64,000 nt of DNA from positions 434,001 to 498,000 of the forward strand of contig NZ_JAGHZZ010000001.1 of NCBI RefSeq assembly GCF_017745095.1, in the 5' to 3' direction. Every line of letters begins with the position of its first letter. Positions within the stretch are counted from its first letter, which is position 1. The position numbers and the translations under genes were made by a program. Below the pieces are notes generated by a model. That model had not been told where the DNA came from and searched no databases. It saw only the letters and a list, made by a program, of their open reading frames with translations. This document shows positions 33,601 to 42,697 of this stretch, piece by piece. This DNA is from Sporocytophaga sp. Lineage in GTDB: Bacteria; Bacteroidota; Bacteroidia; Cytophagales; Cytophagaceae.

Positions 33601-36600
33601 ATGAGAACTAAGCAGACTTTTTTTCATAATGAAAAAAGTCAGAGTGAAAGAAAAGTTATTGAATTGATGTGTTATGCCTCTTCAGGGAGTTTTTTCTGGT
33701 TTTTTTTAATTGTGTTTGTGACCTTTAATCGAAGTCTTTCTGCTCAATCCTGTGGATGTGATTATACTATCCCTTCTGGATCAACCATTATTGACCGTAA
33801 TACACTTTCAGTAACGACACTTCCTAAAAATAAACGTGTTATTTGTTTTCAGTCCGGTACCAGGACGGCTCCTTTGATGGTCAAGAACTTCAAGGGTTCT
33901 ACAGATGGCGGAATTAATGCTCCTTATATTTTTAAAAATTGTTCTGCCCAGGTTGTCTTTAATATTGCCTTGTCTAATGGTTATGCATTTAAATTTTTTA
34001 ACAGTGAAAATGTCAGATTATCAGGTACCGGCTCTTCTGACCAATACGGGATTGTATTGAGTGGTGCTAACATTACACTGGTATTAGGAGATACAACTAC
34101 AAAGGTGGAAATAGATCATGTGGATATAAGAAATTCAGGGTTTTGCGGTTTGATGGCAAAAACGGACAATGCCTTAGCAAAGGTTGTGGGTGGGAATAAT
34201 AATCCTGCAGGATTTGTTATGAAGAATATTTATATACATGACAATTATATATATAATACAGATGCTGAAGGGATGTATATAGGCAATACGAATTGGGCTC
34301 CCGGTAATACTCAGCATAACCTGGATAGTGTTTTTGTGTATAATAATATTGTCAGGGATGCCGGGGCGGAAGGGATTCAGATCGGTGACTGCCCTTCGGG
34401 AAGAGCTTATGTATATAACAACTATATCAATGGTTTCGGCAGAAAATACCAGACTTTTGCTTTGTATCAAAACAATGGACTTCAACTCAGCACCGGATTC
34501 TCTGGCAGATGTTATAATAATTTTATTTATGGTTACCCCGGAGATGAGTTTACTCAGAATGGACTCGTATGTGTGGGCTTAGGTAATGTTTATATTTATA
34601 ACAATGTTGTTGTGAATGCAAAAGACAATGGTATTTATGTAGGCTCCAACAATGCAGAGTCAAAGGCAAAACCATTTTATGTTTTTAATAATACGATTGT
34701 AAATCCTTCTCATGATGGGATAAGGCTTCAGGAGGTTGGTTCTGCAGTAAATAAAATAAGTGCATTCGTTTATAACAACCTTGGTGCAAATATCCCAGCA
34801 GGTTATAGTCTTGTAAAAAGGGCAAGTCCGCTGATTAGTTCTTCAGAGGTGGCAAATATTAGCAATACAATTCCTGCCTTTAATTTTCAGGATCCTGACA
34901 ACAATGACTATAATCTTACTGAAAACAGTAATCTTGTGATTGATCTGGGAACTAACATTGTCGCATCCTATGGCCTTACCTCCGATATTGATGGTAATTT
35001 GAGAGCTCCTCAGGGAGGGGCCTTTGATGTGGGTGCTTATGAATATGTTTCAGACTTTTTACTCACAGTCGATCCGCAATCTCTTATAGGTAAATGTATT
35101 GGAGATACCTTCATGCTTTCCTACAGTGGAACGAATACAGGATGGCCTTCAGATGTCACGTATAAGGCTTCCCTTTCAGGCCCTGATGGGTATTTTGGTC
35201 CTCAGAGAATTATTGTTGGTTCAAATGATTCTTTATCTGGTCAAATTAAATCTGCTTTGCCAGATAATATTCCTCAGGGAAATAATTATAGGGTAAGGAT
35301 TGAGGCGTCTAATAATTCCGGGTTCTTTAGAGCTGGTCCGGAAAGTTCAATCGGATTAGCTCGTATGGAAGCCTTGCAGTTTAGGTCTCCGCAGAGGGCA
35401 TCCGTTTCTAATTCATCTCTTTTTGCTCCAGGTATTGGAGATTTCACCATTGAGGCAAGGGTAAAAATGGATTTTTCTGCAACTGACAATAACATGCTGG
35501 AGATCGTGTCAACAAGAGCGATTGGGAATACGTCCAAAGGTTATATGTTTGGATTTAACTATGCAACGGGAAAGATAGTGTTTAATTTTTTTAATGAATT
35601 CGGTGTTAATGTGAATATTCAAAGTAATACACTAAGTCTTTCAGACATGCGTAATGATGGGGCTTGGCATCATCTGAGTGTTAGCAGAAGTGCAGGAAAC
35701 AAATTTACATTCTTTCTTGACGGATATTCTGTGGGTGTGCAGATTTATAATGTCGATCTAAGTGTTGCTTCAAATTATTTGTTTATAGGTTATGATGAAC
35801 CTGGTAATGCAGGCATGTCATCTTTTACGGGAAGTATAGATTATCTACGCTTCTGGAATGTTGCAAAAACCGAGATAGAGCTGATCAACAATCTGAAAAT
35901 GGATTTTCCATATCCTTCCAATGGACTATTAGGTTTATGGAATTTTAATGAGTGCAGCGGAGTTCAAGCTATTCTGGATGATAGTCCATATGGTAATGAT
36001 GGCTGGTTGGGTATGAATTCAGATATTGGCACCAATGATCCTTCCAGAACTATTGGTTCCGATAAAGCAGAGAGTTTTCGTGGTTTGGATTTTAATTCAG
36101 TTGTTGCAGGGAAATTGGATGTTGCGACAATTCCACATAATGTGAATTATAATTTCCAAACGAACTTTTCTCTAGAGGCTTATATCAATCTTAAGAATCC
36201 CTTAAAAGGAACAAGAACTGTAATCTATGAAAAGGATACAACAAACGGAGTTCGCTTTTATGTAGCTGATGCAAATCACTTGGGACTCGTTATTGGAGGT
36301 ATGACAGTTCTCAGTGATGTGGTTCAGAAAAATAATGTTACTGCAAATTTATATTCTGGAGGATGTTATGCTGTGGCTGTCACTGCTACTCAGTCGGGCA
36401 CTAGCTATATTATCAGATTTTACTTAGATGGACTTCTTGTAGGTACTTCAAAATTTGTTTCAGGAACGAACGCATTTACTTCCGAAAGCAATGCTCTTAT
36501 TGGATGTGATGCAGCACAAAGTATTCCTGCTAATGGATATATTACTGAGGTAAAGCTTTGGAAAACTGCGAGAACAGCAGATGAAATAAAGAATAATCTG

Positions 36601-37068
36601 GGAGTGGTGTTCTCGAGTATTACAGTAAACCTAGCTGGATATTGGCGTTTTAAAGAAATAAATGGTCAAACGCTCATTGATCAAAGTGCTAATAATAACG
36701 CTGGTTATCTGGGAGAATCTCTTGCTGTTGAAAGTACTGCAGATCCTCAAAGAAGTGATAACAGATGTCATTTTAATGACAGGGTTGATACTTTGCCTGT
36801 TCCAGATTCTTTGATTTCAGAAGATATGAAAGTAGCTGTTTATCCTAATCCCTTTTCTTCTGAATTTGGTGTTGTAATCACTGGAAGAATGGGAGAGAGT
36901 TCTGATTTTTATATGTTTGATCTTGCTGGAAGACTCGTTTTTGAAAAGCTTGGAATTAAAAATAATGAGTTAGCAGTTCTTAGTCCTGATCTTTATGGTG
37001 GTATGTATTTGGTAAAAGTAGTAAAAGGCGGGCAAGTTCAATTTGTTAAAGTAATCAAGACTCACTGA
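33601..37068 (+). CDS. Large secreted T9SS type-A cargo: parallel beta-helix plus two LamG-like domains
   Basis: 1155 residues. The hydrophobic signal segment F-F-W-F-F-L-I-V-F-V-T-F is preceded by an unusually long polar N-terminus; an internal ATG at 33667 would give a normal signal peptide and may be the true start. About residues 130-400 form a right-handed parallel beta-helix (repeated Y-N-N-I/Y-I, N-A-D-G-I/E-G-I-Q/Y-I-G units). Two concanavalin/LamG-like domains follow (F-T-I-E-A-R-V-K-M…W-H-H-L-S-V and F-S-L-E-A-Y-I-N-L), then V-Y-P-N-P-F-S-S-E-F to F-V-K-V-I-K-T-H, a type-A sorting domain. The fold suggests a polysaccharide-binding or -cleaving surface protein; catalytic residues cannot be assigned. 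Confidence 0.88.
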   Translation: MRTKQTFFHNEKSQSERKVIELMCYASSGSFFWFFLIVFVTFNRSLSAQSCGCDYTIPSGSTIIDRNTLSVTTLPKNKRVICFQSGTRTAPLMVKNFKGSTDGGINAPYIFKNCSAQVVFNIALSNGYAFKFFNSENVRLSGTGSSDQYGIVLSGANITLVLGDTTTKVEIDHVDIRNSGFCGLMAKTDNALAKVVGGNNNPAGFVMKNIYIHDNYIYNTDAEGMYIGNTNWAPGNTQHNLDSVFVYNNIVRDAGAEGIQIGDCPSGRAYVYNNYINGFGRKYQTFALYQNNGLQLSTGFSGRCYNNFIYGYPGDEFTQNGLVCVGLGNVYIYNNVVVNAKDNGIYVGSNNAESKAKPFYVFNNTIVNPSHDGIRLQEVGSAVNKISAFVYNNLGANIPAGYSLVKRASPLISSSEVANISNTIPAFNFQDPDNNDYNLTENSNLVIDLGTNIVASYGLTSDIDGNLRAPQGGAFDVGAYEYVSDFLLTVDPQSLIGKCIGDTFMLSYSGTNTGWPSDVTYKASLSGPDGYFGPQRIIVGSNDSLSGQIKSALPDNIPQGNNYRVRIEASNNSGFFRAGPESSIGLARMEALQFRSPQRASVSNSSLFAPGIGDFTIEARVKMDFSATDNNMLEIVSTRAIGNTSKGYMFGFNYATGKIVFNFFNEFGVNVNIQSNTLSLSDMRNDGAWHHLSVSRSAGNKFTFFLDGYSVGVQIYNVDLSVASNYLFIGYDEPGNAGMSSFTGSIDYLRFWNVAKTEIELINNLKMDFPYPSNGLLGLWNFNECSGVQAILDDSPYGNDGWLGMNSDIGTNDPSRTIGSDKAESFRGLDFNSVVAGKLDVATIPHNVNYNFQTNFSLEAYINLKNPLKGTRTVIYEKDTTNGVRFYVADANHLGLVIGGMTVLSDVVQKNNVTANLYSGGCYAVAVTATQSGTSYIIRFYLDGLLVGTSKFVSGTNAFTSESNALIGCDAAQSIPANGYITEVKLWKTARTADEIKNNLGVVFSSITVNLAGYWRFKEINGQTLIDQSANNNAGYLGESLAVESTADPQRSDNRCHFNDRVDTLPVPDSLISEDMKVAVYPNPFSSEFGVVITGRMGESSDFYMFDLAGRLVFEKLGIKNNELAVLSPDLYGGMYLVKVVKGGQVQFVKVIKTH

Positions 37069-37645: not shown

Positions 37646-38572
37646 TTACTCTGTATCCTCATTAGGTTGATCATTTTCTCCTACGTTAAAAGGGAATATA
37701 TGGATGCTGATTTCATACCTGCCGGTATTGGCGAGATGGTCAGAGCCTGTAGGGTGAAAATATGAAAAGTATAAATCATTATGGATTTTCAGGAAATTGA
37801 ATTTTACTATTCCCAGTGAAGCTACCGGCCCTCGCTTCCATATGTAATTAACACCAGCACTGAAATTATTCATAAACTCTAATGTCCCCGATAGCCATAA
37901 TCCTTCATAGTATCCTTTCCCCTTATAAAGTTTCATACCAAGAATCAAATCTGCATTTGGCGAAATCTCTTTTCTATAATCCATAAACAGATTTATGTAT
38001 CTGCCCAAAGCATAGGTTCTGTAAACGGGTTTTATTTCTGATGCGAGTAACTGAACTCCTGATATTCCTATATTGAACTTCTTGCTTGCAAGCCAAAGAC
38101 CAACAGATGCATCTGGAATTGCCGATGAACTGCCTGAACTGTTTTGAGTACTTTTTACCAGATAATTAAAGACGCCGGCCTGAATAGCTGCTGCGAGTTT
38201 AACAGATGAAGTAAGTTGAATGCTGCGGCAATAACGTAGATATAAACGGTTTCTTTTTAGTATTTCTGTTTCATATTCGGAATGAAGGGTTATTCCAAAA
38301 GTATGAACAGGTGTTTCGCTTGACTTCCCTAGGCTATAGGAGGCATCCAGATAATTAATACCTACATTGTTTAGAATCCCTGAAAATGCGCTGTGCATCA
38401 GATTTATTTCTCCCTTTTCTGTAAGGGTTGAGGCCGCAGGATTTTCAAAAATGTAATTATTTTTTAAACGCAAAAAGTTTAAAGGATATATATATGCTTC
38501 CTGAGCATAAGATGAGCAATAGATAAAAATTAACGATATGTAGACAAAAAAGAACCTCACATTTAATATCAA
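37646..38572 (-). CDS. PorP/SprF-family type IX secretion membrane protein
   Basis: 308 residues with a signal peptide (…Y-C-S-S-Y-A-Q). The start N-P-A-A-S-T-L-T, the gly-rich barrel strands and the ending Y-E-I-S-I-H-I-F-P-F fit the PorP/SprF family of outer-membrane barrels. Members work with T9SS cargo, in particular type-B sorted proteins. No ATG is near the start: TTG at 38572 or GTG at 38560 must be used. It is divergent from the sigma factor / anti-sigma / LRR operon, whose last product carries a type-B sorting domain, so a partnership is likely (inference). Confidence 0.82.
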   Translation of the reverse strand: MILNVRFFFVYISLIFIYCSSYAQEAYIYPLNFLRLKNNYIFENPAASTLTEKGEINLMHSAFSGILNNVGINYLDASYSLGKSSETPVHTFGITLHSEYETEILKRNRLYLRYCRSIQLTSSVKLAAAIQAGVFNYLVKSTQNSSGSSSAIPDASVGLWLASKKFNIGISGVQLLASEIKPVYRTYALGRYINLFMDYRKEISPNADLILGMKLYKGKGYYEGLWLSGTLEFMNNFSAGVNYIWKRGPVASLGIVKFNFLKIHNDLYFSYFHPTGSDHLANTGRYEISIHIFPFNVGENDQPNEDTE

Positions 38573-38922
38573 TTTATCGTTCTGGTTTTTCCGAATTGTG
38601 TTTTAGGGAATATTATTTCTTGGATTTGTCTAATTGGCTAAAGTACTTCTTTTTCCTGACTTTTATACGTAGATAAAATCAGATAGTACCTGGTTCATAA
38701 TCAAGAAATACGTTTTAATAGTGAAGGATAATTTATTTATTATTTGAAAGGAATAAAAAATAAAGAATTACGTATCAGATATAAAGGAGAATTTTTGCGT
38801 ATTAAAAGGCGCCTGAATCCCTGTTATCTATAAGAATATTCTCATAAAATCGGACAAGTGCATGTTACTTTGTATCTATTTGTCTGTACTAGTTATATTA
38901 AAGCTTTTCAAAATAAAATATC
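38573..38922. other. Divergent intergenic region between the PorP/SprF-like and sigma-factor genes
   Basis: 350 AT-rich bases without a gene; it must hold both promoters. Two TACGTA-like motifs (about 38677 and 38769) are followed by ATC/CAGATA-like sequence. No standard TAnnTTTG element is clear, which would fit recognition by an ECF sigma factor, but I cannot define boxes. Confidence 0.45.
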
Positions 38923-39495
38923 TTGAAATACAGTCTCGAACATATTGCTGAAAACATCAGGAAGGGTAATGATAGGGAAGTATTGCAGTGGATGTACAAG
39001 GAAATTTATCCCAAGGTGGAAAAGTATGTTTCCGGTAATAGTGGATGCATAGATGACAGTAAAGATGTTTTTCAGGAATCTATAATCATATTCTATAAAT
39101 ATATTATAGAAAACAAATATGACAGAATAGTGGATTTAAGTGCTTTTATAATGGGGATTAGCCGAAATGTTTGGATCAATAAAGTCAGGAAATTGAATAG
39201 AGAAGTAGATGCAGATCTTTTGGAACATTTTGAAGAAAGAAGTAATAATCCTCTTATTGCCCTCATTATGAGTGAAAAGTGGGATGCATATAAAGCATTG
39301 TTCGAGAAACTTGGGGAGAAATGTAGAGAATTACTTTCTTATTCTTCTTATGAAAAGCTGAATATGAAAGAGATTGCAGAGAAAATGGGCTTTTTAAATG
39401 AAAATGTGGCCAAAACCCAAAACTATAGATGCAAGCAAAAGCTTCTTGAGTACATATCAGCAAATGAAGAAATTAAAGATCTTTTAAAATCATGA
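38923..39495 (+). CDS. ECF-type RNA polymerase sigma factor
   Basis: 190 residues. Region 2 is seen as D-V-F-Q-E-S-I-I-I-F-Y-K-Y-I…F-I-M-G-I-S-R-N-V-W-I-N-K, and region 4 as Y-S-S-Y-E-K-L-N-M-K-E-I-A-E-K-M-G…A-K-T-Q-N-Y-R-C-K-Q-K-L. The only possible upstream start is a TTG, since an in-frame TAA lies two codons before it. The stop overlaps the ATG of the next gene, a membrane anti-sigma protein (ATGA overlap), so the two are co-made and presumably bind each other. Targets may include the adjacent PorP/SprF-like and LRR genes. Confidence 0.9.
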   Translation: MKYSLEHIAENIRKGNDREVLQWMYKEIYPKVEKYVSGNSGCIDDSKDVFQESIIIFYKYIIENKYDRIVDLSAFIMGISRNVWINKVRKLNREVDADLLEHFEERSNNPLIALIMSEKWDAYKALFEKLGEKCRELLSYSSYEKLNMKEIAEKMGFLNENVAKTQNYRCKQKLLEYISANEEIKDLLKS

Positions 39496-40616
39496 ATATC
39501 GGAGAGGAAACATTAGAACTTATAGATCGCTACCTCTCGGGTGATCTTACTGAATCTGAGAAGAAGAGCTTTAATCAAAGATTGGCTCAGGATGCTGAAT
39601 TTAAGACATGGGTAGAAAATCAAAAATTTGCCAATGAATTGATTCTTGGGGACAGATTGTATTCTTTGAAGTCAATGATGGATGAGGATTTTTCTTCTGG
39701 AAAGGTAAAGGGAAACCAAAACGCATTGAAGAATGGAAGAATATTCCTGTTTGGAGGAATGGCTTTAGTCGCTTCAGCATTAATGTTGTTTTTCATGTTC
39801 AGAAAGGAAAATGTTAAAGAGAAGAATATTGCTGTTGACTTGACTACTAAGGAGTCAAATCAGAATTCAAATATTAATTCGTTTAATATTAATCCCACGA
39901 TTTCCTCTTTAGAAAAAGATAAAAAAGCAGAGCGAAACAGTAAGAAGTTAAATGATATTGCAAAGCTTTCAGAGCCTGCACCTTTGGAGGGGATTGGTAA
40001 AGTTGATGCTTTGGCTGGGTCTGATAATAAACCCGAAGTCGATGATATAAACGAGCAGCATAATATACAATCACTGCCTCAAGAAGCTGAGGTTCGTTGT
40101 GCTGTAAAAACCATACACGCAAAGATGAAATCAGAACCTGCGTGTATTGACAGGGAAGATGGAAGGTTAATCATAGTTAAGATTCTGGATCATGTAAATC
40201 CATTAGCTTATGGGATAACAACTGTTTCCGGAGATACTCTGTGGCAGTCATCAAATATCTTTTCAAATATTTCGTCTGGCACTTATGCTGTTAGTGTTAA
40301 AGACGCAAATGGTTGTCGGATGCAAATAAAAGAATTGGTCGAAGTAGGAGCGAAAGAATGCAAAAAAACGCAGCAAACATATAGCTTTAATCCTGCATAT
40401 GGGGAGACTGTTACCATTAAAGTAGAAAGCGCTGGCACTATGACAATCCGTAACCGTGCAGGTATTGTGGTATTCAGTGGAAATGTTTCTTCTGGCGAGG
40501 ACTTTAACTGGGATGGACAAAACTCATCCGGAGGAATTTCCGCTCCTGGTTTGTATATTTACTTATTGGAAGATAATAATGGAAATTCAGTAAGAGGGGA
40601 AATTTTAATTTATTAA
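39492..40616 (+). CDS. Membrane anti-sigma protein with SprB-like and gliding-type C-terminal domains
   Basis: 374 residues. The cytoplasmic N-terminus (L-S-G-D-L-T-E-S-E-K-K-S-F) is the usual Bacteroidota anti-sigma segment. One membrane helix spans about residues 84-102. The periplasmic part has a low-complexity linker, then an SprB-like repeat about 215-285 (A-C-I-D-R-E-D-G-R…I-S-S-G-T-Y-A-V-S-V-K-D-A-N-G-C). It ends in a small beta domain (M-T-I-R-N-R-A-G-I-V-V-F…W-D-G-Q-N…A-P-G-L-Y-I-Y) resembling the C-terminal domain of type-B T9SS cargo. This ending is shared with the next gene. The anti-sigma role is inferred from the overlap with the sigma gene and topology. Confidence 0.85.
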   Translation: MNIGEETLELIDRYLSGDLTESEKKSFNQRLAQDAEFKTWVENQKFANELILGDRLYSLKSMMDEDFSSGKVKGNQNALKNGRIFLFGGMALVASALMLFFMFRKENVKEKNIAVDLTTKESNQNSNINSFNINPTISSLEKDKKAERNSKKLNDIAKLSEPAPLEGIGKVDALAGSDNKPEVDDINEQHNIQSLPQEAEVRCAVKTIHAKMKSEPACIDREDGRLIIVKILDHVNPLAYGITTVSGDTLWQSSNIFSNISSGTYAVSVKDANGCRMQIKELVEVGAKECKKTQQTYSFNPAYGETVTIKVESAGTMTIRNRAGIVVFSGNVSSGEDFNWDGQNSSGGISAPGLYIYLLEDNNGNSVRGEILIY

Positions 40617-40620
40617 TCGT

Positions 40621-42318
40621 TTGAAGCGGCTTATACAAATATTGTTTTTTTTGATTGTGCTGTGGTCGGGAAATCCGGCAGCAGCTCAACAATATTTTAC
40701 TATTCCTGATCCTGCTTTCAGAGATTATTTGGATAGAAATTATCCTTTTCTTTTAAATGCCCAAAAGCAATTGATTATAGCAACAGCAAATTCCTATACT
40801 GGAACAATCAGCTGCATGGACTTGGGCATAAAAGATCTTTCCGGGTTAGAATATTTTAGAAGTATCCTCCAGATCAACTGTTCCAAAAATCCGGTTGAAA
40901 AATTCCCATCTCTGAATGGACTGCAAGGCCTAACTCATCTTTGGGCTGAAGAATGTGCACTTACAGAGTGCCCCGATATTAGTCAGCTTAAAAATCTTCA
41001 GGTGTTCGATGTTAAGTCTAACAATTTATCTGTGTTGCCGAATCTTTCAGGATTGACATCTTTAAAGTATTTCGATTGTAGTATTAATAACATCAGTGTC
41101 ATGCCAGACTTGTCAGGTCTTATAAATCTGGAAAGTTTTTACTGTTATAGAAATAATATAGGAACGATTTCACCTGTGATGAATTCTCCAAACCTTAAGA
41201 TATTTGATTGTTCTTTTAATAATCTGAAATCAATTCCAGATCTATCAAAGAATATAAATCTTGTTGAGATTAATCTTGGAATGAACTCTATTACAGAACT
41301 GCCGTCATTAGAGAATTTGAATAATCTTGAACGTTTGTATCTCTATAATAACAGCTTGACAAAGCTTCCATTGCTGCCTTCTGGAAATAAGTTGACATTA
41401 ATCAATGCGGCAAGTAATAAACTAACTTCTATTCCTGATATTTCTTCCAGAACAGCACTTACAGTTGCTGCTTTTGATCATAATCAGATTAGCTTCTCTG
41501 ATATAATTCCGCAAGTAGCTCATCCTTCGTTTGCTTCAGTATTTATATTTAATCCTCAGGATACGATAAATAATTTTAAGAATGTAAATGTTTCTGCAGG
41601 AAGTGATGTAGAAATATCTGTTCAAAGAGATGCGCAGATTAGCAGCAATAGTTATTACTGGAAAAAGGAAGGAATCTTTTTTGATACTACTTCATTCAAT
41701 TCCACACTTTTAAAGTCTGCCCAAAAAAATCAAGAAGGAAATTATATCGCGGAAGTTGTCAATAGCACTCCAGGCCTTGAAGGATTAAGACTTATCTTTA
41801 GAACGGTTTCTCTTAAGGTGTCAGAGTGTGGCGCTATATCGACTTCTTATAGTTATAATATTGTTTCAAATTCCTGTGCAGAAGGGGCCACAATTTCTAT
41901 TGATAATATAAATTCATCTCCTCAGAGCGGGCCGTTTAAATATCAGCTTGTTTCAAAAGGAGTGAAGTCGCTCTGGCACACCACGGCACAAATAGATGAA
42001 TTAAAACCAGGGTTGTATGATCTAATTATACAGGATAAAAGTAGTTGCCTTACTGAATTGAAAAATTATATCCTGATACCAAATGCTGAAGATTGTGACA
42101 ATGTAATAACACCCAATGGTGATGGTATGGGAGATTATTATTCAATTCAGGCAACTGGAAAAATTAAGATCTATGATAAAAGTCTTAAGGTCATTCAGGA
42201 ATTTACTGGTCCTGGTATTTGGGATGGCACTGATTTCAGAGGAGAAATTGTACCAATAGGTCTCTATATTATAGTAATCAATGGTAAGGATAAGATAAAC
42301 ATCCTTGTATTGAATTGA
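40621..42318 (+). CDS. Secreted leucine-rich-repeat protein with type-B T9SS sorting domain
   Basis: 565 residues, TTG start four bases after the anti-sigma stop. Signal peptide (L-F-F-L-I-V-L-W-S-G-N-P-A-A-A-Q) is followed by about nine leucine-rich repeats (L-x-x-L-x-x-F-D-x-x-x-N-N-L-x-x-x-P-D-L-S) to about residue 290. An Ig-like segment, then an SprB-like repeat (N-S-C-A-E-G-A-T-I-S-I…G-L-Y-D-L-I-I-Q-D), then the type-B sorting domain T-P-N-G-D-G…W-D-G-T-D…P-I-G-L-Y-I-I complete it. LRR surface proteins bind partners or substrates. Third gene of the sigma/anti-sigma operon; export probably depends on a PorP/SprF partner such as the divergent one. Confidence 0.87.
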   Translation: MKRLIQILFFLIVLWSGNPAAAQQYFTIPDPAFRDYLDRNYPFLLNAQKQLIIATANSYTGTISCMDLGIKDLSGLEYFRSILQINCSKNPVEKFPSLNGLQGLTHLWAEECALTECPDISQLKNLQVFDVKSNNLSVLPNLSGLTSLKYFDCSINNISVMPDLSGLINLESFYCYRNNIGTISPVMNSPNLKIFDCSFNNLKSIPDLSKNINLVEINLGMNSITELPSLENLNNLERLYLYNNSLTKLPLLPSGNKLTLINAASNKLTSIPDISSRTALTVAAFDHNQISFSDIIPQVAHPSFASVFIFNPQDTINNFKNVNVSAGSDVEISVQRDAQISSNSYYWKKEGIFFDTTSFNSTLLKSAQKNQEGNYIAEVVNSTPGLEGLRLIFRTVSLKVSECGAISTSYSYNIVSNSCAEGATISIDNINSSPQSGPFKYQLVSKGVKSLWHTTAQIDELKPGLYDLIIQDKSSCLTELKNYILIPNAEDCDNVITPNGDGMGDYYSIQATGKIKIYDKSLKVIQEFTGPGIWDGTDFRGEIVPIGLYIIVINGKDKINILVLN

Positions 42319-42660: not shown

Positions 42661-42697
42661 ACAAAAAAGGCAGTCCTCGAAGAGACTGCCTTTTTTG
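42661..42697. terminator. Terminator of secDF
   Basis: AAAAAAGGCAGTC / GACTGCCTTTTTT, 13-bp stem with an 8-base loop, 21 bases beyond the secDF stop. Confidence 0.92.

Follow-up and report, generated by a model that had tools for sequence, protein, structure and literature searches.

A four-gene locus in a 64,000-nucleotide stretch of the Sporocytophaga sp. genome (contig NZ_JAGHZZ010000001.1, positions 434,001 to 498,000; hereafter the window, in whose own numbering positions are given) is one of 12 paralogous cassettes, each combining a PorP/SprF-like outer-membrane barrel, an extracytoplasmic function (ECF) sigma factor, an anti-sigma protein and a type-B cargo of the type IX secretion system (T9SS). 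Judged by sequence comparison, the extracytoplasmic half of the anti-sigma protein is the end of a type-B cargo, module for module. This cargo-tail mimicry is well supported, since the two tails are homologous, the anti-sigma one having the fold of a T9SS C-terminal domain (CTD), and the neighbourhood is conserved. On balance we favour reading the cassette as a cargo-specific, one-component trans-envelope signalling system in which an unsecretable cargo mimic would dock on its cognate barrel.

The four genes sit where the initial annotation had placed them. The barrel gene (37646-38572, minus strand, 308 amino acids) is divergently encoded and PorP/SprF-like, as had been claimed: PF11751 (PorP_SprF) scores 69.9 bits against a curated cut-off of 22.3, and TIGR03519 stays at 40.6 bits, below its cut-off of 90.55. 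The ECF sigma factor (38923-39495, plus strand, 190 amino acids) matches TIGR02937 (49.1 bits, cut-off 42.9) and Sigma70_r2 (25 bits, cut-off 24), with Sigma70_r4 at 18.0 bits under a cut-off of 24.1; region 3 was unmatched in the Pfam scan, which leaves the pattern of sigma-70 regions 2 and 4. Its gene overlaps that of the membrane anti-sigma protein (39492-40616, plus strand, 374 amino acids), as in 54 of 56 cassettes. In the predicted model the latter begins with a helical, presumably sigma-binding N-terminal domain (residues 1-80, 39492-39731; helices 3-16, 21-33 and 35-69 in the modelled part, 3-69), followed by a single transmembrane helix (residues 83-103, 39738-39800), also seen in the hydropathy of 60 homologues, and a low-confidence linker (about residues 104-204, 39801-40103), all on the plus strand. 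A sigma gene with such a protein encoded downstream has, as far as the model goes, the make-up of an ECF sigma/anti-sigma pair; the anti-sigma model NF052375 is matched by nine of the 60 family members. The fourth gene (40621-42318, plus strand, 565 amino acids) encodes a secreted leucine-rich repeat (LRR) protein, the presumed cognate cargo, with LRR_4 over cut-off, CHU_C at 27.9 bits (cut-off 27) and TIGR04131 at 21.5 bits, below its cut-off of 35. Its hydrophobic N-terminal segment, its CTD with a TPNGDG motif and the adjacent PorP/SprF gene are the features expected of a type-B cargo.

The anti-sigma protein ends in an SprB-like repeat (residues 205-290, 40104-40361) and a type-B-like T9SS CTD (residues 293-374, 40368-40613), both on the plus strand and both modelled as all-beta with pLDDT mostly >90. 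The initial annotation had called just such a repeat and a gliding-type CTD outside the membrane. From this one sequence the call is unprovable, because CHU_C (19.2 bits) and FlgD_ig (23.1 bits) both score under the Pfam cut-off of 27 and SprB was unmatched in the Pfam scan; with 59 homologues it becomes provable. Domain scans of these 60 members (window protein included, E ≤ 0.01) found CHU_C in 45, the SprB repeat (PF13573) in 30, TIGR04131 in 26 and FlgD_ig in 36, and the call is thus borne out at the level of the family, not by the window protein alone. The LRR protein carries the same two modules, an SprB-like repeat at about residues 403-485 (41827-42075, plus strand) and a type-B CTD at about residues 486-565 (42076-42315, plus strand), the latter with TPNGDG at residues 497-502 (42109-42126). 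That both modules are shared, as proposed originally, is confirmed by profile-profile alignment (hhalign): the two CTDs align at 98.5% (E 3e-15) and the two repeats at 98.2% (E 5e-14). Four controls with cross-module and N-domain pairs gave 53.1, 13.6, 3.1 and 0.6%, the highest being the anti-sigma repeat against the anti-sigma CTD (E 1.4e-4). Against these cross-module controls, the profile-profile scores rule out chance or composition as the source of the similarity.

Structural comparison places the anti-sigma CTD among T9SS domains. When 994 chains were re-aligned, the top two by Z score covered the anti-sigma CTD and both lie in T9SS proteins: PorZ 693-775 (5m11; Z 9.7, 2.3 Å over 79 residues) and PorU 1065-1156 (6za2; Z 9.5, 1.8 Å over 74 residues), segments that we take to be the CTDs of PorZ and PorU. 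The next matches were unrelated beta-sandwiches at Z 8.4 and below. In the Foldseek ranking of the whole PDB, long and loose alignments to alpha-2-macroglobulin and complement beta-sandwiches led and PorZ came 21st; re-alignment put PorZ and PorU first. The repeat model aligned with domains of the GhpA hook protein (9fls) at Z 7.6, a level also reached by common folds. Tail homology is a profile-profile result and the T9SS CTD fold a result for the anti-sigma model, the structure search with the cargo having returned LRR matches. The initial annotation had staked its reading on the two C-terminal regions being related, and they are. In the class-wide search, the repeat-plus-CTD half further picked out proteins that have SprB-like repeats and a type-B CTD, matching them at their ends. 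A PorP gene adjoins such a protein in five of six opened loci (L228, L229, L231, L233 and L235); beside the matched protein of the short locus L236 no PorP gene was seen.

The two tails differ at the sorting motif. Of 58 cargos, 48 have its core, P[ND][GNE]D, where the CTD begins; of 56 anti-sigma proteins, none does. In the window protein FNPAYGE replaces the P-N-G-D core, and a loose FNPxxGExW-like pattern occupies the CTD start in 44 of the 56. In Flavobacterium johnsoniae five CTD motifs are each necessary for secretion of an SprB-CTD fusion, mutation of any one blocking it (PMC12618676, excerpted text); we assume that TPNGDG is among those five. The anti-sigma protein also has no N-terminal signal peptide pattern: its hydrophobic helix lies at 83-103, behind the N-domain, and across 60 homologues the best 19-residue hydropathy averages 0.38 at the N-terminus versus 1.96 at the transmembrane helix. 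Of the features of a type-B cargo it thus has the homology and fold of the CTD, and neither a TPNGDG-like motif nor an N-terminal signal peptide. The lack of a P-N-G-D core in any examined anti-sigma CTD suggests a docking decoy rather than a second cargo.

Across relatives, the CTD goes together with the barrel and the cargo. Sigma loci were collected partly via the sigma sequence alone in named genomes and partly via the anti-sigma profile, and exact duplicate sigma sequences were removed; the neighbourhood hidden Markov models were trained on the 12 own-genome cassettes, and loci without a CTD call may contain no anti-sigma gene. A CTD-bearing anti-sigma protein occurs in 60 of the 131 distinct loci, with a barrel and a type-B-like cargo within 4.5 kb in 56 of them. 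The other four lie <4 kb from a contig end (L196 and L215 with a barrel only, L096 and L217 with neither); a barrel is present in 58 of the 60, the other two being at contig ends. Among the 71 CTD-less loci only two hold barrel and cargo, and both are the same CTD-less cassette, met in two genomes (L051 and L091). Where flanks are full, the proportions are 42/42 with a CTD versus 2/51 without. A set drawn by a single sigma pattern, limited to the 80 best of 477 relatives and counted as 79 distinct sigma genes, gave 13/14 versus 1/65. The loci share kinship, and these counts are not numbers of independent events, nor can Fisher values computed from them be read as probabilities. Conservation of the neighbourhood, on which the initial annotation had also depended, therefore holds in 56 of 60 loci, with the rest near contig ends. 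Both the linkage and the sorting-motif counts exclude L244-L263 and L283-L292, which were inspected by eye.

The cassette reaches beyond the genus. Full-length anti-sigma matches, judged from match ranges, occur in at least 15 of 19 genomes of the family (best E 1e-10 to 3e-16 in the remaining four) and in at least 22 of 291 genomes of the order (33 pass E 1e-18, the rest partial). Among 395 genomes of the class they occur in at least two outside the order (E 1e-20 is passed by 41, most of these being cargo tails). Because only 5-6 candidates were scored for each genome of the order and class samples, per-genome counts are floors; one relative with a single 4,433,218-bp contig has at least five cassettes. 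The cassette itself was found in two genomes outside the order (L263, L292) and in a metagenome-assembled genome labelled Flavobacteriales (L093). Seven further loci were chosen for an anti-sigma CTD match lacking the repeat. Five of them hold sigma factor, barrel and cargo (L283, L284, L285, L289 and L290); L286, cut by its contig, has barrel and cargo, and L291 is a stray 94-residue CTD fragment with neither. In L283-L286 a shorter anti-sigma protein, with a CTD and no SprB-like repeat, precedes a cargo of roughly 600 residues and a PorP ending in TPRDF, all on one strand (L286 being cut at the contig start). L287 and L288 encode an anti-sigma protein without a CTD and have neither barrel nor cargo. 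In L262 (G018:C4) the anti-sigma gene is split into a 119-residue N-terminal frame and a 161-residue repeat-plus-CTD frame, by decay or assembly error.

Searches of the 6.63-Mb, 64-contig assembly with the anti-sigma and sigma sequences returned 11 loci besides that of the window, and all 12 hold the four gene types, with the barrel divergent from the sigma gene in 10. Nine cargos align with the window LRR protein over their length and three have other N-terminal parts: RCC1 repeats in L051, with CHU_C over cut-off; a weak laminin-G-like match in L048, also with CHU_C over cut-off; and only sub-threshold immunoglobulin (Ig)-like and FlgD_ig matches in L050. PorP_SprF is matched 31 times in the genome, 12 of these within cassettes; there is a single SprA translocon, and TIGR04131 gives 40 matches (E ≤ 0.001). 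Eleven cassettes bear the mimic and one is CTD-less (L051, 5683-10057, on G000:C44). There the anti-sigma protein ends after the SprB-like repeat, and sigma factor, anti-sigma protein, cargo and PorP follow one another on one strand. Its barrel, absent from BLAST and found in profile searches, ends in MPRYF. Orthologues in G016 and G017 (L254, L260) have the same CTD-less form, with anti-sigma proteins of 244-246 residues in the three genomes; in a fourth genome (L261, the same place as L091) the N-domain is a 99-residue frame and the repeat a separate 141-residue frame. This may be a second form of the circuit.

The anti-sigma CTD is under strong constraint, being as conserved as the N-domain: identities over 14 within-genus orthologue pairs are 87% for the CTD, 86% for the N-domain, 79% for the repeat and 48% for the linker. 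The linker, with its low identity yet stable length (median 104 residues, interquartile range 99-109, range 14-141, n = 60), looks like a tether. Co-divergence was assessed in 53 of the 56 cassettes, after removal of those whose cargo is common to two sigma genes or whose PorP has <200 residues. Distances among anti-sigma CTDs follow those among cargo CTDs at r = 0.62, and at 0.52 given the sigma factor, the highest partial value among the modules. With PorP the anti-sigma CTD correlates at 0.33 given the sigma factor and the N-domain, and at 0.22 with the cargo CTD also controlled. In a tree of 120 CTDs the anti-sigma, cassette cargo and canonical type-B domains fall on separate branches (98/89, 97/96 and 98/95), subject to the caveats that the alignment has few columns for its 120 rows, that the bootstrap had not settled, that branches are long and that the root is a midpoint one; the cargo CTD of L051 groups with the canonical ones. 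The separation of the three groups shows one old origin and joint inheritance. Recent or repeated capture of cargo tails is ruled out by the same supported branches.

The window's barrel ends in a 13-residue C-tail without cysteine, unlike most other PorPs of the genome. A cysteine occurs within the last 18 residues in one of 55 mimic-cassette PorPs versus 13 of the 19 other PorPs of the genome, and the residues after the aligned core number 1.5 at the median (0-14) in the 12 own cassette PorPs versus 16 (6-27) in the 19 others. A tail-less barrel is no strict correlate of the mimic: the barrels of L283-L286 end in TPRDF while their anti-sigma proteins have the CTD, and four of the own 12, the window's included, have 11-14 residues after the core. 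Alignment of the PorP sequences against the PDB returned no chain at E ≤ 0.01. In F. johnsoniae the C-tail cysteines of SprF form a disulfide with GldK only once SprB has been exported and loaded (PMC12635249, excerpt), and barrel occupancy is therefore readable from inside. Most cassette barrels, having no cysteine-containing C-tail, differ from this track-linked carrier and would not be coupled to the gliding track by an SprF-type disulfide. The anti-sigma protein may be their periplasmic partner instead.

The divergent region between porP and the sigma gene (38573-38922) offers a candidate for shared control. AAC-type -35 elements are typical of ECF promoters, and a possible one, AGTAAC, faces porP at 38864-38869 (minus strand), as far as 291 bases from the porP start. 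In a three-genome alignment both this element and CGATTTTAT at 38844-38852 are conserved in two further genomes of the genus. Of 65 distinct porP-sigma regions, 34 have GTAAC facing porP (4.42/kb); other divergent regions in these loci have it in 3 of 29 cases (0.20/kb). By another count it is found in 26 of 52 regions versus 4.9 in shuffles. A dyad promoter search gave a weak excess, 16 regions versus 10-13 in shuffles. Closer to porP, a block of about 55 bases (38612-38666) is near-invariant in the three genomes while the middle of the region has diverged; it could be a leader element or a second promoter.

From these observations we propose the following. The operon would supply the ECF sigma factor, the inner-membrane anti-sigma protein and the secreted LRR surface protein, and the divergent gene the PorP/SprF-like barrel that would collect and anchor the LRR protein after T9SS export. 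The anti-sigma protein would reach across the periplasm with a flexible tether, about 100 residues long, ending in the copy of the cargo tail, which keeps the fold and has no P-N-G-D core and would thus be recognised by the cognate barrel and not exported. On a free barrel this tail would dock; cargo arriving in the barrel, or a change of the cargo-barrel complex at the surface, would displace or rearrange it. Displacement would in turn set the stability of the anti-sigma protein, presumably through proteolysis, and so the activity of the sigma factor towards the cassette's own genes. The direction could be either, loading switching the sigma factor on, as in FoxR, or off, as homeostasis. The initial annotation had proposed such a feedback circuit, in which the anti-sigma domain competes with cargo/translocon occupancy or reports on it, and releases a sigma factor that controls the barrel and LRR genes. 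We likewise infer it, with indirect support from the CTD families co-diverging beyond the sigma tree, from GTAAC facing porP and from published shuttle dependence: type-B CTDs bind their cognate PorP/SprF shuttles or depend on them (PMC12618676, PMC9143113, excerpts).

Several observations weigh against this model. Ten of the 58 cassette cargos also have no P-N-G-D core, so its absence alone is no proof that a tail is unsecretable, and the CTD is not needed in every cassette, since the C44 form keeps sigma factor, barrel and cargo. Part of the correlation is shared inheritance, because pairs not expected to touch stay correlated (N-domain with PorP at 0.23 and with the cargo CTD at 0.16, given the sigma factor and the anti-sigma CTD). 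The repeats correlate with each other at a partial value of 0.12 (p = 0.07), and partial Mantel tests are liberal. Within genomes, cognate CTD pairs are not significantly more alike than others (p = 0.078 for 42 cassettes in 11 genomes; p = 0.21 in the own genome alone, where the window's cognate cargo CTD ranks 6th of 11). GTAAC facing away from the sigma gene is frequent before CTD-less sigma genes as well (16 of 32 regions, 2.22/kb), which makes it a feature of this ECF clade. A shared promoter as proof of a cassette-specific regulon was rejected on the same ground.

Instead of PorP, the tail might bind unexported cargo or another T9SS part (SprA, PorV or a PorE-like protein) in a response to export stress. 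A shared module could serve recognition by common T9SS parts, and the correlation between anti-sigma and cargo CTDs persists once the sigma factor, the N-domain and PorP are accounted for (r = 0.40). We nevertheless hold this unlikely: the barrel is a conserved neighbour in 58 of 60 loci, the anti-sigma CTD co-diverges with PorP as well (at the values given above), and 11 mimic-bearing cassettes in one genome are more than a general sensor of export would require.

Rather unlikely, too, is that the anti-sigma protein is itself a T9SS substrate, its tail passing through SprA to be anchored in PorP while the N-terminus stays at the inner membrane, so that an external ligand or contact is sensed. 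The tail is homologous to a secretion signal and has a linker of about 104 residues before it, and Dma proteins, with an N-domain, a transmembrane helix, a disordered tether and a C-terminal barrel, do span both membranes (PMC13088901, excerpt); the 10 presumed cargos without the core likewise speak for such display. Against it stand the absence of the sorting-motif core from all 56 anti-sigma CTDs and the block to SprB secretion by mutation of any one of the five motifs (PMC12618676, excerpt).

Least probable of the three is a generic Ig-like sensor, its repeat and CTD captured once as adhesive or structural modules for an unrelated cue and its linkage a matter of regulon membership only: the FlgD_ig matches, the lack of significant cognate resemblance within genomes and the linkage kept by the CTD-less C44 cassette would fit, but the CTD predicts barrel and cargo almost perfectly, finds its highest-Z PDB matches in the T9SS proteins PorZ and PorU, is as constrained as the N-domain and persists in loci that have lost the repeat (L283-L285, L289 and L290).

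The docking model shares elements with several known systems. The F. johnsoniae SprB/SprF and Porphyromonas gingivalis PG1035/PorP pairs are alike in the CTD family of the cargo, the adjacent PorP/SprF gene and the cognate pairing (as far as excerpted accounts go); unlike them, the pairs described here also have their own ECF sigma factor and, mostly, a CTD-bearing anti-sigma protein. The terms anti-sigma, ECF and sigma factor are absent from the text of PMC12618676. Dma (PMC13088901, excerpt) resembles the anti-sigma protein in its N-terminal sigma-binding domain, one transmembrane helix, long disordered tether and outer-membrane connection. Dma, in contrast, carries its beta-barrel in cis. 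Here the tether leads to an 82-residue beta domain, alignable with PorZ and PorU, and a separate PorP/SprF protein, which has a cargo of its own, provides the barrel. In FecR-type signalling (PupR/PupB, FoxR/FoxA) the anti-sigma protein also reaches an outer-membrane partner, contact with which protects FoxR from proteolysis (PMC11637429, excerpt), and PupR ends in an STN subdomain (PMC7186176, excerpt). Neither the window protein (Pfam matches at E ≤ 1) nor any of the 60 homologues (E ≤ 0.01) matched a FecR family. Unlike in FecR-type systems, moreover, the outer-membrane neighbour is PorP/SprF rather than a TonB-dependent receptor, and the mimicked module is a T9SS sorting domain. With no FecR domain, no TonB receptor and no barrel in cis, the cassette belongs to neither the Dma nor the FecR class.

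SigI/RsgI of cellulolytic clostridia also comes as many sigma/anti-sigma paralogues per genome, each regulon being correlated with an anti-sigma protein that senses a target polysaccharide (PMC6056542, excerpt). That system is Gram-positive with polysaccharide-sensing modules; here the tail is a secretion-sorting domain. In PorA/PorXY/SigP of P. gingivalis a surface CTD protein influences an ECF sigma factor controlling T9SS genes (PMC7712824, excerpt), although there a two-component system activates the sigma factor, while here the CTD sits on the anti-sigma protein itself. In Flavobacterium psychrophilum a class of ECF-type promoters precedes T9SS genes, with one anti-sigma/ECF pair among the genes of the class (PMC9723704, excerpt). 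These last two were the T9SS sigma circuits found in the open-licence PMC literature, as far as its excerpts show; no description of the combination seen here was found in that literature, and a paper elsewhere is possible.

A terminator-like hairpin follows the operon (42662-42697, plus strand), in a region where such sites show no excess over shuffles (4 found, 3.4 expected), and sigma-70-like promoter matches are at chance level (26 found, 22.6 expected). Near the cassette, 33601-37068 encodes a further T9SS cargo of 1155 residues, which combines two laminin-G-like stretches with a type-A Por_Secre_tail. Two related loci lie elsewhere in the genome. In L058 (4941-6501, G000:C63) the sigma gene is followed by that of an anti-sigma-like protein with Trypsin_2 (E 2e-18) behind the N-domain; in L054 (4962-10526, G000:C10), by the gene of a 734-residue protein, anti-sigma-like at its N-terminus and unmatched in Pfam, and that of a TonB-dependent receptor, which may make up a Dma-like or FecR-like system. 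A relative belonging to the same family has a 10,366-residue open frame with many SprB-like repeats (G001:C1, around 1610344-1637568).

The cassette bears on the question of how, in Bacteroidota, expression of type-B surface proteins is kept in step with the capacity of the PorP/SprF carriers dedicated to them. It would offer a compact, cargo-specific route: there are a dozen parallel copies, and the tail common to anti-sigma protein and cargo is set apart by a single sorting motif. Sensing of secretion state thereby becomes testable by domain swaps, and the field of T9SS shuttles is joined to that of Dma- and FecR-type anti-sigma proteins. More tentatively, we consider it quite possible that the tail is a tethered, unsecretable decoy cargo, blocking the cognate PorP/SprF barrel from the periplasmic side until exported cargo arrives and evicts it. 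Each surface protein would then report its own delivery across both membranes to its own sigma factor, over 11 parallel lines and a CTD-less one in each cell. If true, this would be a new class of cell-surface signalling.

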